DNA of 34,744 bases, from positions 1 through 34,744 of IMG/VR virus record IMGVR_UViG_3300032308_002617; one strand, written 5' to 3'. The notes under the pieces were generated by a model. It searched no databases. It was given only the letters and a program-made list of their open reading frames with translations, and had not been told where the DNA came from. The first letter of the stretch is position 1. Every line of letters starts with the position of its first letter. The DNA is from a virus. Of the stretch, positions 2,148 through 29,976 are shown piece by piece. Position numbers and translations under genes: made by a program.

Positions 2148-2488
2148 TGAAAAGCAAAGATCAAGTTTTATTAGAACAAGCTTATAAAAAAGTTTTGAAT
2201 GAACAAGAAAAGCAACTTAGTAAATTTGTATCAAATGATATTGCTAAAGTTGTATCAAAATTAGATTTTGAAAAACTTGATAATGAAGATTTTGTAAAAA
2301 TTGCTTTAAAAAATCCCGCAATCATAGATCATATGCGAGATTGGATTTTTCAATTAGTAGATAGTGGAATATACGGAGACGATCCAACTGATGATGATGT
2401 TAGAGCATTGTCGCCTGAAATAGTTGTGAGATTTGTGAAAAACGAAATTGGTGGTAATTTGGCTGACTATTTTTCTTTATTACGTTAA
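2147..2488 (+). CDS. Leader-bearing small protein (KDQ class)
   Basis: 113 aa, starting MKSKDQVLLEQAYKKVLNEQ, the fullest version of the leader: LLE at 8-10 and LNE near 17-19 are both (L/I)xE sites. The body is acidic and helical with DDPTDDDVRAL near the C-terminal third; no recognised domain. It is translationally coupled to the preceding gene by a TAATG overlap. The pair shares leader codons almost exactly (AAAGATCAAGTTTTATTAGA in both), so the leader was probably duplicated or exchanged at DNA level. Confidence 0.82.
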   Translation: MKSKDQVLLEQAYKKVLNEQEKQLSKFVSNDIAKVVSKLDFEKLDNEDFVKIALKNPAIIDHMRDWIFQLVDSGIYGDDPTDDDVRALSPEIVVRFVKNEIGGNLADYFSLLR

Positions 2489-3498
2489 ATATTCGTTTGA
2501 TCACCAGAGAAAATAATATCATTTGGCTTTAATCCATTGATATTCCTGTTAACTAATTCTTTTTTAAGAATATCTTTTAATTTATCAAAAGAATTAGTTT
2601 CCAAAGATGTTTCGTAAAAATTATTGATTCTGAAGATTCCAACCTTTTCAAACACATCACATTTATTGATGATTACTTTGGTTGAACCTGAAAGATTAAT
2701 AGCATTGTTTAATCTTCCAAAGTTTAACCAATTTACAATTCGCTTTCTACCTGTCGTAGATCCAAACTCTCCCCCAAGTTCAATTAGTTGATTGAGTTTT
2801 GCATCATTCCAAAGACATTCTGGAAACAAAGGATCGACTCCACTTTTGGTATCATAAATTTTTGCCACACCGATAATGTCACGAATTTTCTTTGGAGAAA
2901 ACCCAAGAGAACAAGCATTGTGAGGAAATGTTTCAGAGCTTGTCACAAAAGGATAATCACCATAATTGATATCCAACCAAATACTTTGAGCACCTTCACA
3001 AAGAATTTTTCCTTCTAATTTTCCATCCCAAATAAAATCTTTTAATGGGTTAAAGTTAAGATATTTGACTTGGATGCCAACACGATTTGCTTTATCTGCA
3101 TAACAAGGAGCAATACCTTGACCAGTAGTTCCAAGTTTGGGTTTTAGATGTTTCAGATCATATTCAATATGTGCATCTGTAATGACATGAACATTTGGAT
3201 GAACTTTTACCAAAGATGTATCGAATCCGTTTTCTTTTAGATATTCAATTTCTTTGAGAAACTTATCGACATTCAAAACACAGTTTGGACCGATAACAGA
3301 TTTTTTTCCGTGAAAAACACCAGAAGGAATCAAATGGGTTTTATATTTTTTACCATCCAAATAAACAGTATGTCCAGCATTTGGTCCACCATTCCAACGA
3401 CAGACCATATCATAGTCTTTCGCCATCGCACTTGAAATTTTACCCTTGCCTTCATCACCCCAAGCAAGACCAACGATAACATCAACGTGTTTAATCAT
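2485..3498 (-). CDS. purA: Adenylosuccinate synthetase (PurA), short form
   Basis: 337 aa, shorter than usual bacterial PurA (about 430 aa) and closer to archaeal and phage members. The family reaction is IMP + aspartate + GTP to adenylosuccinate, the first committed step to AMP. Visible motifs: GLAWGDEGKGK (catalytic Asp15), NGGPNAGHT (His43), TTGQGI, TTGRKR near 245, and the guanine-binding INKCDVF near 278. Phage PurZ enzymes that make 2-aminoadenine have Ser in place of this Asp (GSEGKG); here Asp is kept, favouring IMP as substrate. It overlaps the upstream small gene by ATGA and therefore belongs to a three-gene minus-strand unit. It pairs functionally with GuaC at 29035. Confidence 0.93.
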   Translation of the reverse strand: MIKHVDVIVGLAWGDEGKGKISSAMAKDYDMVCRWNGGPNAGHTVYLDGKKYKTHLIPSGVFHGKKSVIGPNCVLNVDKFLKEIEYLKENGFDTSLVKVHPNVHVITDAHIEYDLKHLKPKLGTTGQGIAPCYADKANRVGIQVKYLNFNPLKDFIWDGKLEGKILCEGAQSIWLDINYGDYPFVTSSETFPHNACSLGFSPKKIRDIIGVAKIYDTKSGVDPLFPECLWNDAKLNQLIELGGEFGSTTGRKRIVNWLNFGRLNNAINLSGSTKVIINKCDVFEKVGIFRINNFYETSLETNSFDKLKDILKKELVNRNINGLKPNDIIFSGDQTNI

Positions 3499-5495: not shown

Positions 5496-5567
5496 CTGAT
5501 GCGGTAGGACTCGAACCTACAACAGCCTGGTTAACAGCCAAGTGCTCTACCATTGAGCTACGCATCA
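5496..5567 (-). tRNA. tRNA-Asn (anticodon GTT)
   Basis: 72-nt cloverleaf: acceptor TGATGCG/CGCATCA, D stem GCTC/GAGC, anticodon arm CTTGG-CTGTTAA-CCAGG (anticodon GTT), T arm GTAGG-TTCGAGT-CCTAC, discriminator G, no CCA. Its 5' end directly follows the 3' end of the large structured RNA, so RNase P cleavage of a joint precursor would define both ends. Confidence 0.94.
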
Positions 5568-5568
5568 A

Positions 5569-6165
5569 AAAATTCGGCTGTCTTTACATACCATCATTTT
5601 CCTTTCGGGTTTTCCCTTTCGGAATCAAGTACGGACTCTCTATCCTTTCGGACGGTCAACTTACGCACACCGTATGCGGGTCATGGCAACCATCCCCCTT
5701 ATTACTGGAACGACCAGCTTCATCTCATCAGTGGGTTCTGACTAGAATCTCGTTAGGATTCTCGGATTTTTAAAAATTGGTGTTTTTGTCGCAAACAGGA
5801 CCAGACTGATGTTTAAGTTGCGCCTTAAACTGCTGGCTTCTGGTTAGCAATAAGCCAACAACAGAAGAACACAGAACCTTTACCCCTTTCGGGACAAGGG
5901 TTTTAGCCTATATAGCTTTGGTTAACCCAGAACCTACACTCTTCTTTTTCAACCCCGACTTATGCAGTGCTTATCCCACTATGGAGACTCTATATGTCTG
6001 ATCAGAACACGGACACGTATCCGTTATATAGAGAGGTAGAGTTGCATACCTTTTTATAAACCAATCCATTTATTGCAGAGTTGTTAATTGGTTAAACCTA
6101 TCTCTGACCTGATGGGTTTCGCATCAGGATTTTTAGTGCTGGTTCGACTAGCCAGCACTAAACTT
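5569..6165 (-). ncRNA. Large structured RNA (ROOL/GOLLD-like)
   Basis: About 600 nt without a credible gene, higher in GC than the surroundings, running straight into tRNA-Asn. Read on the minus strand it contains several GAAA tetraloop hairpins (UCC-GAAA-GGA, UUCC-GAAA-GG, CCC-GAAA-GGG), consistent with a minus-strand RNA. Long helices: 6132-6142/6152-6162 (11 bp), 6108-6114/6122-6128 (7 bp), and 5988-5995/6026-6033 (8 bp) enclosing 6009-6013/6020-6024 and the palindrome at 5997-6006. Size, phage context and tRNA adjacency match the ROOL and GOLLD classes of ornate phage RNAs, which assemble into symmetric RNA cages. Class membership is inferred; I could not test a covariance model. The exact 5' end is uncertain. 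Confidence 0.7.
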
Positions 6166-6206
6166 TTAAATTTTTCAAAGAACTATATCTAATTTACCAG
6201 ATATAT

Positions 6207-23874: not shown

Positions 23875-23897
23875 ATAGATCTGTTCTTTGAAAATTT

Positions 23898-24353
23898 GGG
23901 GGTGAATTAGATTTCGATTTATAATTGAAATTTATATCGCATGTCGAGGTTAATCGATGGCCTCGTAAAAAATCGATTAAAAATTAAGAGCAGATAATAC
24001 TGACTCAATCTTAGCTGAAGCTGAACATATCTTCAACAACGCCGACGAGTATCTCGTAGGTGCTGAAGACGAAATGCTCTTAGCAGCCTAAGGTCCTTAT
24101 AACTAGATCCTCTAAGGTTATATTGATAGCAGAGGGTATTAGATTGTTGGTAGTTCTGATATAATAAAAAAATATCAACCGTTTATAGATTGCGATAATG
24201 TCTATAGGCAGACTAAAAACTCGGTTAGTATCGCCAAGCAGCCTAAAGTCTTCGTTACCGTATGGTGGCTGAAATGCTAAAGATACTAAAACATGTAGAA
24301 ATATAAATGTAGATTATAAAGACTCGGAGGGCAGCACTCCGACACCTCCACCA
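23898..24353 (+). ncRNA. ssrA: tmRNA (ssrA), phage-encoded
   Basis: 456 nt, one-piece tmRNA. The 5' end GGGGGTG pairs with CACCTCC at the 3' end, followed by A-CCA (24350-24353) and a T run. Downstream of GCATGTCGAGG the RNA has pseudoknot 1: CGAGG (23945-23949) pairs with CCTCG (23961-23965), and TTAATCGAT (23950-23958) pairs with ATCGATTAA (23972-23980). GGCCTCGTAAAAA is almost identical to bacterial tmRNA. The tag frame begins 9 nt after PK1. tmRNA with SmpB rescues stalled ribosomes and tags the peptide for proteolysis. The T arm CGGAG/CTCCG has the odd loop GGCAGCA. The 169 nt from 24354 to 24522 show no gene. Confidence 0.93.
23990..24091 (+). other. tmRNA tag-peptide reading frame (33 aa)
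   Basis: Resume codon GCA, then 33 codons to TAA. The tag begins ADNTDSILAEAEHIFNNADE and ends AEDEMLLAA. The C-terminal LAA is what ClpXP-type proteases read in bacterial tags, but this tag is two to three times longer than most (commonly 8-15 residues) and unusually acidic. Confidence 0.85.
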
Positions 24354-28850: not shown

Positions 28851-29054
28851 CTATTCTTTAATTGCAACAATTAATTCTTTCCAAGATAAAAATTTTTCTG
28901 GAACTTCCGGAACTTCCCAACCAAAAAACCAAAATTTTTCTTTTCTATATTGAGCAATTTCAAAAATTGCTTTTCCGTCTTTATCTTTTTCAGGGAATTC
29001 TATCAAATAAAGATATTCATCCTTTAATATTGGGTTATCGATGCGTAATGACAT
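28851..29054 (-). CDS. Small uncharacterised protein overlapping guaC
   Basis: 67 aa from the ATG at 29054 (MSLRIDNPILKDEYLYLIEF), which lies 20 nt inside the 3' end of guaC in another frame; an upstream ATG at 29096 would overlap further. Mixed charged/aromatic protein with KFWFFGWEVPEVPEKFLSWK near the end. No family recognised. Probably co-transcribed with guaC. Confidence 0.62.
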   Translation of the reverse strand: MSLRIDNPILKDEYLYLIEFPEKDKDGKAIFEIAQYRKEKFWFFGWEVPEVPEKFLSWKELIVAIKE

Positions 29055-29976
29055 AATCAGTATTATTAAAAATTTTAAGATTTGTACCTCCCGCATAACT
29101 TATAGAACTTTGCAATGCTTGAGTTATTTGTTCTAATCTTTCTTCTAAAGTATCTGCTAATTCTAATTCCAACAAAGTTCCTTCGATATGATTTTTATGT
29201 CCTTTATTATGTGAACTGGCAGAGCCGTAATAAACTTTTCTTCCGTTTACAGTTGGTGCAGGAGAATCGGAACAAGAGGCAAACATAGAACCTGCCATAA
29301 TCCAATTTGTTCCAGCCACTAGAGCTTTTGCAATGTCTCCATAATGGTTTACTCCTCCGTCTGCAAATAAAGGAGTATTTGCAATTTCCGAACATTCTTG
29401 AAGAGCCGTGAACATTGGAACATGAAAACCTGTTTGAAAACGGGTCGTACAAGCCTTACCGGGTCCAATTCCAATACGAATCCCATTTGCGCCATAATCT
29501 TCCAAAAATTTTACGCCATCCTTTGTAGTGACATTTCCAGCAATAATAAAAGTATTGGGAAAAAGCGATTTAATTTGCGAAAGTCTTTGTTTGACTTTGA
29601 TGTGGTGACCGTGAGCGACATCAATTGTGATAAAATCGACATACCACCCATTTTCATAAATTTCTTGCAATTCTTTTAAAGAATCTTCATTTACTCCGGT
29701 AGAAATGCTGACAAATTTAAATTTTTGTTCATTGGCATTTTTGACAAAAGGAACTGTGATATTATCAAATCGGTGCATGATATAAAAATAGTTATTGTCG
29801 GAGAGCCATTTGGCCCAACTTTCATCAATCACAGTTTTCATGTTGGAAGGAACAATAGGAATTTTAAATTTAAAATTTCCCAATTGTAAAGATGTATCTG
29901 CCTTTTTTCTGGTTTGCAATTCCGAGTATCGGGGTACTAAAAATACATCATTATAATTCAGAGCAACTTTATTCAT
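29035..29976 (-). CDS. guaC: GMP reductase (GuaC)
   Basis: 313 aa, TIM-barrel without CBS domains, as for GMP reductase rather than IMP dehydrogenase. Motifs: LNYNDVFLVPRYSEL at the N terminus, TIDVAHGHH, GNVTTKDG, GIGPGKACTTR with catalytic Cys176, FADGGVNHYGDIAKAL (phosphate loop), KVYYGSASSHNKG and the C-terminal LQSSISYAGGTNLK, which matches the Bacillus-type GuaC ending. The reaction is GMP + NADPH to IMP + NH3. With PurA (2485) it would send guanine nucleotides to adenine nucleotides. A sigma70-like promoter is at 29986-30013. Confidence 0.9.
   Translation of the reverse strand: MNKVALNYNDVFLVPRYSELQTRKKADTSLQLGNFKFKIPIVPSNMKTVIDESWAKWLSDNNYFYIMHRFDNITVPFVKNANEQKFKFVSISTGVNEDSLKELQEIYENGWYVDFITIDVAHGHHIKVKQRLSQIKSLFPNTFIIAGNVTTKDGVKFLEDYGANGIRIGIGPGKACTTRFQTGFHVPMFTALQECSEIANTPLFADGGVNHYGDIAKALVAGTNWIMAGSMFASCSDSPAPTVNGRKVYYGSASSHNKGHKNHIEGTLLELELADTLEERLEQITQALQSSISYAGGTNLKIFNNTDYVITHR

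Follow-up and report, generated by a model that had tools for sequence, protein, structure and literature searches.

A one-piece tmRNA of large uncultured T4-like phages with a long conserved tag and linked D-loop and T-arm versions

Phage-encoded ssrA genes have been described in Bxz1, Wildcat and other mycobacteriophages, in Bacillus phage G and in the methylophage Melnitz, for the most part with no phage-specific role assigned to them (PMC4131195, PMC9004378), and a gene of phage DS6A that consists of the tRNA-like domain only has been proposed to inhibit host trans-translation (PMC4131195). The usual tmRNA tag is 10 amino acids long (PMC11915505), the LAA of the E. coli tag is a ClpX signal, and both SmpB binding and function depend on D- and T-loop contacts (PMC3968760). 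A T-loop with GG in place of the two U residues was noted in 2005 in the mitochondrial tmRNA of Reclinomonas (PMC1168896). Neither tmRNAs in phages nor introns in the T-loop nor T-loops of the GG type are new; what appears to be new in the family described here is its tag, the coordinated switching of its elbow and its boxA-like leader.

The DNA that we analysed, hereafter the window, is a complete IMG/VR record of 34,744 bases, in which the initial annotation had proposed a phage-encoded tmRNA with a 33-residue acidic tag, to be checked with the Rfam tmRNA model and ARAGORN. We found that RF00023 covers exactly the proposed 23898-24353 (+), over model positions 1-374, with 91.9 bits (cut-off 47 bits; E 1e-34). 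The MFE of the 456-nt mature RNA, encoded CCA included, is -126 kcal/mol (z -5.2) and beats all 100 shuffles, with the acceptor, much of helix 2 and the T-arm hairpin contained in the fold. ARAGORN reports nothing for this gene. Judged from sequence and predicted structure, 23898-24353 (+) is confirmed as a complete one-piece tmRNA gene. Elsewhere in the window we note an adenylosuccinate synthetase-like protein at 2485-3498 (-), which matches the PHROG 'PurZ' (phrog_1211) but carries the PurA-type Asp in GDEGKGK, and an IMPDH/GMP reductase-like gene at 29035-29976.

The acceptor stem (GGGGGTG/CACCTCC) pairs in all seven positions, between GGGGGUG at 23898-23904 and 24343-24349, includes G3-U70, and its 3' strand runs on into A73 and the encoded CCA (24343-24353). 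It is followed by the D-loop (AAUUAGAUUUCGA, 23905-23917) and by the 5' strand of helix 2 (23918-23943), which pairs with 24292-24320 in the MFE fold. In the Rfam alignment, pseudoknot 1 (CGAGG-TTAATCGAT..CCTCG..ATCGATTAA, 23945-23980) precedes the resume codon GCA, which lies at the consensus position, 23990, and opens a 33-aa frame that ends in LLAA at the TAA of 24089-24091. The region of pseudoknots 2-4 (24092-24291), assigned from the Rfam alignment only, matches weakly and with low posterior values, and a CAGCCTAAAGTCTTCGTTACCG block within it is conserved in relatives. The T-arm (24324-24342) has a stem of 6 bp (UCGGAG/CUCCGA) and the loop GGCAGCA at 24330-24336. The diagnostic parts listed in the initial annotation, the acceptor with CCA, pseudoknot 1 and the LLAA frame, stand. 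It overlooked the boxA-like leader, the T-loop introns of relatives and the elbow, which departs from the canonical form: the T-loop reads GGCAGCA for UUCRANN, without U54/U55, and the D-loop has AG for GG. The canonical loops do not strictly define a tmRNA, as functional bacterial ones have this version too.

With the standard one-piece tmRNA (RF00023) the gene shares the G3-U70 acceptor, the stemless D-loop, helix 2, pseudoknot 1, the resume Ala codon, the LAA end and CCA, and it differs in its 33-aa tag, GGCAGCA T-loop, weakly matching pseudoknots 2-4, phage carriage and boxA-like leader. T-loops of the form GGCAGNN or GGCGGUA link it to alphaproteobacterial tmRNA (RF01849) and to one-piece tmRNAs of Sulfobacillus and others, although alphaproteobacterial tmRNAs are permuted two-piece molecules with other tags, whereas the phage gene is one-piece and has sister genes with other elbow versions. 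The Melnitz tmRNA is likewise permuted, in contrast to the one-piece molecule of the window.

Further relatives were gathered through DNA patterns and the tag alignment, and by tblastn 92 viral contigs, of up to 218 kb, encode a relative of the tag. Because the family was collected through the tag and pseudoknot 1, distant relatives with other tags are missed. A script extracted 63 non-redundant complete tmRNAs; it demanded a paired acceptor stem, so that acceptor pairing among the 63 is no independent test. G3-U70 is kept in 61 of these 63 members, and acceptor pairs 4, 5 and 6 vary on both sides. Four contigs from other metagenomes (L121-L124, 39 to 212 kb) have this tmRNA gene too, again next to the gene for the 393-aa HTH-phosphoesterase. 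The T4-type major capsid protein gp23 is encoded on six of the largest contigs (195-218 kb), and the gene carrier is a large uncultured T4-like phage. As the best cyanophage matches share only about 34% identity with this gp23 and psbA is absent in the 9 records examined, a host assignment as cyanophage was rejected. The tag alignment had no match in 84,980 bacterial and archaeal species genomes or in 50,697 phage records, and host assignment by tag failed, a relative being encoded in no bacterial species genome searched. A candidate Bxz1 tag sequence had no match as a query and is not used here; the likeness to Bxz1 relatives suggested in the initial annotation holds in generic terms only, the tag being absent from every isolate phage in the collection.

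Several related loci are unusual. A tag of the same length on the 91.9-kb contig L125 has a sequence, AKAITSAVEAVKSAWSNVVEFFAPEENYCLMAA, quite different from the family core. At the 3' end of a version C gene (L162; elbow versions are defined below), about 15 nt separate A73 from a later CCACCA (CCTCCAGCTCTACTTCGACTCCACCA), which looks like the outcome of an insertion or duplication. On a 107-kb viral contig (L040:950-1130) we observe the 5' half of a tmRNA only, up to the tag AEPSFALAA and its stop, with a terminator-like hairpin directly after the stop; it scores 40.5 bits, below the cut-off, a search of the record for the 3' half found none, and the gene would be truncated or split.

Next, we investigated the tag. 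In the window it reads ADNTDSILAEAEHIFNNADEYLVGAEDEMLLAA, and its 33 residues, against the usual 10 (PMC11915505), bear out the statement that it is much longer than in most bacteria; the length is 32-35 aa in 62 of the 63 extracted tmRNAs. The tag is bipartite, with an acidic core, DNT..[IL]LAEAEYIFNNADEFL, that is conserved, and a linker that varies and terminates in, for example, YLLAA, MLLAA or YALAA. The core lies at 23993-24055 in the window (DNTDSILAEAEHIFNNADEYL), with invariant columns L8, E10, A11 and N16 across 53 tag genes; the ends are mostly [YMC][AL]LAA, and the MLLAA of the window (24074-24088) would by analogy be a ClpX-type degron. The 53 distinct tag genes encode 43 distinct peptides, with a pooled pS of 0.585 and pN of 0.151 (pN/pS 0.26). 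In 1377 of the 1378 pairs, pN is the lower of the two. By this measure, the tag is kept by purifying selection over the full frame, from the normal resume codon on. Together with the Rfam match and the relatives on gp23-carrying viral contigs, this upholds the proposal of a phage-encoded tmRNA with a 33-residue acidic tag.

A shorter tag could be read from ARAGORN, which calls ADEEMLLAA in L121, L122 and L124; the real tag would then be of this short C-terminal type and the upstream frame untranslated RNA. We consider this extremely unlikely, given that the normal resume position opens the full frame and that the upstream codons show the strongest amino-acid conservation while their third positions are free. 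Furthermore, the tag start assigned by ARAGORN is not consistent between relatives, and of the 22 genes that it detects just 1 is given the full tag. Since the whole frame is conserved as protein, its nine-residue tag is wrong.

Conservation is higher in the core than at the C-terminal end, which would suit another reading, in which the core redirects tagged proteins, for example to the phage head or to a phage protein, in place of degradation. Many small proteins of the window (at 1223, 1815, 2147, 5107, 20968, 31324, 33963 and others) share the N-terminus M(K)xKDxxxLExxYxK, like T4-type capsid-targeting sequences of internal head proteins, and such N-termini are common among proteins of the phage family. 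We built a profile of this N-terminus from 8 window proteins (MKNKDQxLLExxYxK) and found the tag unlike it, with 29-60% of tag shuffles scoring as high, so that mimicry of capsid-targeting N-termini, one version of the redirection raised in the initial annotation, was rejected. The C-terminal end is moreover of degron type in nearly all members, and redirection in general appears quite improbable. A PDB search with the tag gave weak matches only (E 0.03 or worse). In the reading that we retain, the end plausibly acts, by analogy, as a ClpXP degradation signal, and the acidic core would most likely offer that protease or an adaptor a second point of recognition or a handle for unfolding.

Upon comparing the elbows of the 63 tmRNAs, we observed three versions. 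Version A (39 members) has the D-loop CUGGUUUCGA and the T-loop UUCRAYU, version B (14 members) the D-loop AAAGGAUUCGAC and the T-loop UAUCRUAN or NAUCGNNN, and version C (9 members) the D-loop UAGAUUUCGA or UAGAUUCGA and the T-loop GGCAGNN. The window gene, with UAGAUUUCGA and GGCAGCA, belongs to version C, the form of the Rfam alpha_tmRNA model and also of one-piece genes of Sulfobacillus and others. D-loop and T-arm versions are concordant in 62 of 63 genes, including all nine with version C (Fisher 4e-11 for version C, for related and thus not independent genes). The only mixed gene among the 63, L199, has the T-loop of version A and the D-loop of version B, in which GG is kept; in L172, a 64th gene, the D-loop is of version C and the T-arm is A-like, with a broken stem. 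Within each version the T-arm stems vary by paired changes while the loop is constant; in version C, five different T-stems all pair 5/5 around a constant GGCAG.

These observations bear on the possibility that the gene is a decaying or decoy tmRNA whose tRNA-like domain would sequester the SmpB of the host and inhibit trans-translation there, the role proposed for the DS6A gene. The non-canonical T-arm would fit such a role, and a similar domain-only molecule inhibits tmRNA (PMC4131195). However, the full tag is under purifying selection, the stems covary around a constant loop, and the version C elbow is normal in functional alphaproteobacterial and other bacterial tmRNAs, which also led us to reject version C as a phage-only or broken T-arm. 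We thus regard a decoy as very unlikely and favour a working tmRNA.

The concordance of the two ends could also arise without any coupling between them, if the genes simply descend from a few old versions, and the version labels are indeed clustered on the tree. On a tree built from the interior only, however, there are 15 version changes, and on supported branches 8 of 8 independent pairs co-switch both ends (p 0.008), so that at least eight such pairs have changed both. In the clearest switched pairs, sister genes differ in the two loops or arms only, with the interior and upstream flank 91-96% identical. For instance, L171 (version C) and L175 (version B) are 91% identical upstream (580 nt) and 96% in the interior, whereas identity falls to 34% in the D/helix-2 arm and to 50% in the helix-2/T arm, and between L171 and L174 the D-loop and T-arm change while most of helix 2 stays. 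Shared ancestry without coupling is accordingly quite unlikely, and repeated linked D-loop/T-arm exchange inside one phage gene family appears to be new. The versions also affect detection: ARAGORN misses 41 of the 63 genes, namely all 23 with B or C T-arms and 18 of the 40 with version A. This standard detector overlooks two thirds of the family and shortens the tag of almost every member that it does report, so that surveys built on it undercount phage tmRNAs and misdescribe them.

Two version A genes (L106 and L111) carry a group I intron (RF00028) of about 255 nt in the T-loop (L111:2569-2803, L106:3844-4078 (-)), with the 3' exon intact. The introns lie after T-loop position 7, the usual place of group I introns in tmRNA (PMC11915505), and differ from the known ones in being on viral contigs. 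Their P1 pairing uses UCAACU of the canonical T-loop, and because this site is absent from versions B and C, escape from the intron is one possible driver of elbow switching. More broadly, the family might escape T-loop-directed parasites or host defences by swapping its elbow among three interchangeable versions while keeping the phage-specific two-part tag, an idea that we offer tentatively and consider rather unlikely. The threats may be integrases directed at the ssrA 3' end, tRNA-cleaving nucleases, or group I introns whose pairing partner is the canonical T-loop.

The mature 5' end adjoins a boxA-like element, TGTTCTTTGAAAA at 23882-23894 (+), which matches the consensus of the rRNA boxA antiterminator (TGYTCTTTRAMA-like). 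A motif of this TCTTTRA type occurs within 30 nt upstream of the 5' end in 59 of the 63 members, compared to 1 of 49 other ssrA genes, with 1.8% expected per 30-mer; its most frequent distance from G1 is 13 nt, and the upstream sequence around it is often unrelated. From this we infer that the element may serve antitermination. Pairing of the leader with the 3' trailer was rejected, the complement occurring in only 2 of 63 members. A second boxA-like element of the window, at about 6184-6168 (-), precedes an ORF-poor, strongly structured stretch of ~600 nt at 5563-6166 (-) (MFE -174.8, z -3.5) that ends at tRNA-Asn and that Rfam does not match at E<=5. Relatives share this arrangement: partial homologs, found in L165/L138, L150/L111 and L153, are also boxA-led and followed by a tRNA. 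In these phages the element may thus be a marker of long untranslated RNAs. The stretch resembles GOLLD/ROOL and may well be a new large ornate phage RNA of that kind. On the minus strand of L121-L123 (about 10396, 10511 and 9332), a conserved untranslated stretch of about 220-270 nt, boxA-led and different in sequence from that of the window, stands before a tRNA-Ser.

As far as is known, host-supplied SmpB is the rule for most phage tmRNAs. A search for SmpB in 15 phage records found none, whereas 10 of 14 control genomes were positive; some contigs are fragments, and the absence is therefore no proof, yet on this result host SmpB must be used. Overall, we put the probability that the whole explanation is correct, a working one-piece phage tmRNA with a selected two-part tag and a jointly replaced elbow, at roughly 85%. 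The boxA-like leader would help transcription past Rho-type termination, and host RNase P, AlaRS (through G3-U70), SmpB and EF-Tu would process, charge and deliver the tmRNA to ribosomes stalled during infection. There it would add Ala and 33 residues, the ribosome being released at UAA. Ribosome rescue by the phage tmRNA is likely. The [YM]LLAA/YALAA end would then route the product to host ClpXP-like proteases, with the conserved acidic core as the probable second recognition element or unfolding handle. D-loop and T-arm would form one functional unit, the elbow touched by SmpB and the ribosome, exchanged jointly among three working versions.

These findings indicate that phage tmRNAs are selected as tagging RNAs and are not relics, since the long tag is conserved over about 90 viral contigs; it is demonstrated here as selected coding sequence and is found in none of the cell genomes searched. 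The boxA-like leader suggests that these phages borrow host rRNA antitermination for untranslated RNAs. The most surprising point is the coupled elbow exchange: D-loop and T-arm lie about 330-400 nt apart in the gene and are replaced together, which raises the question of the driving pressure and provides a natural experiment on the elbow contacts that SmpB and the ribosome accept.
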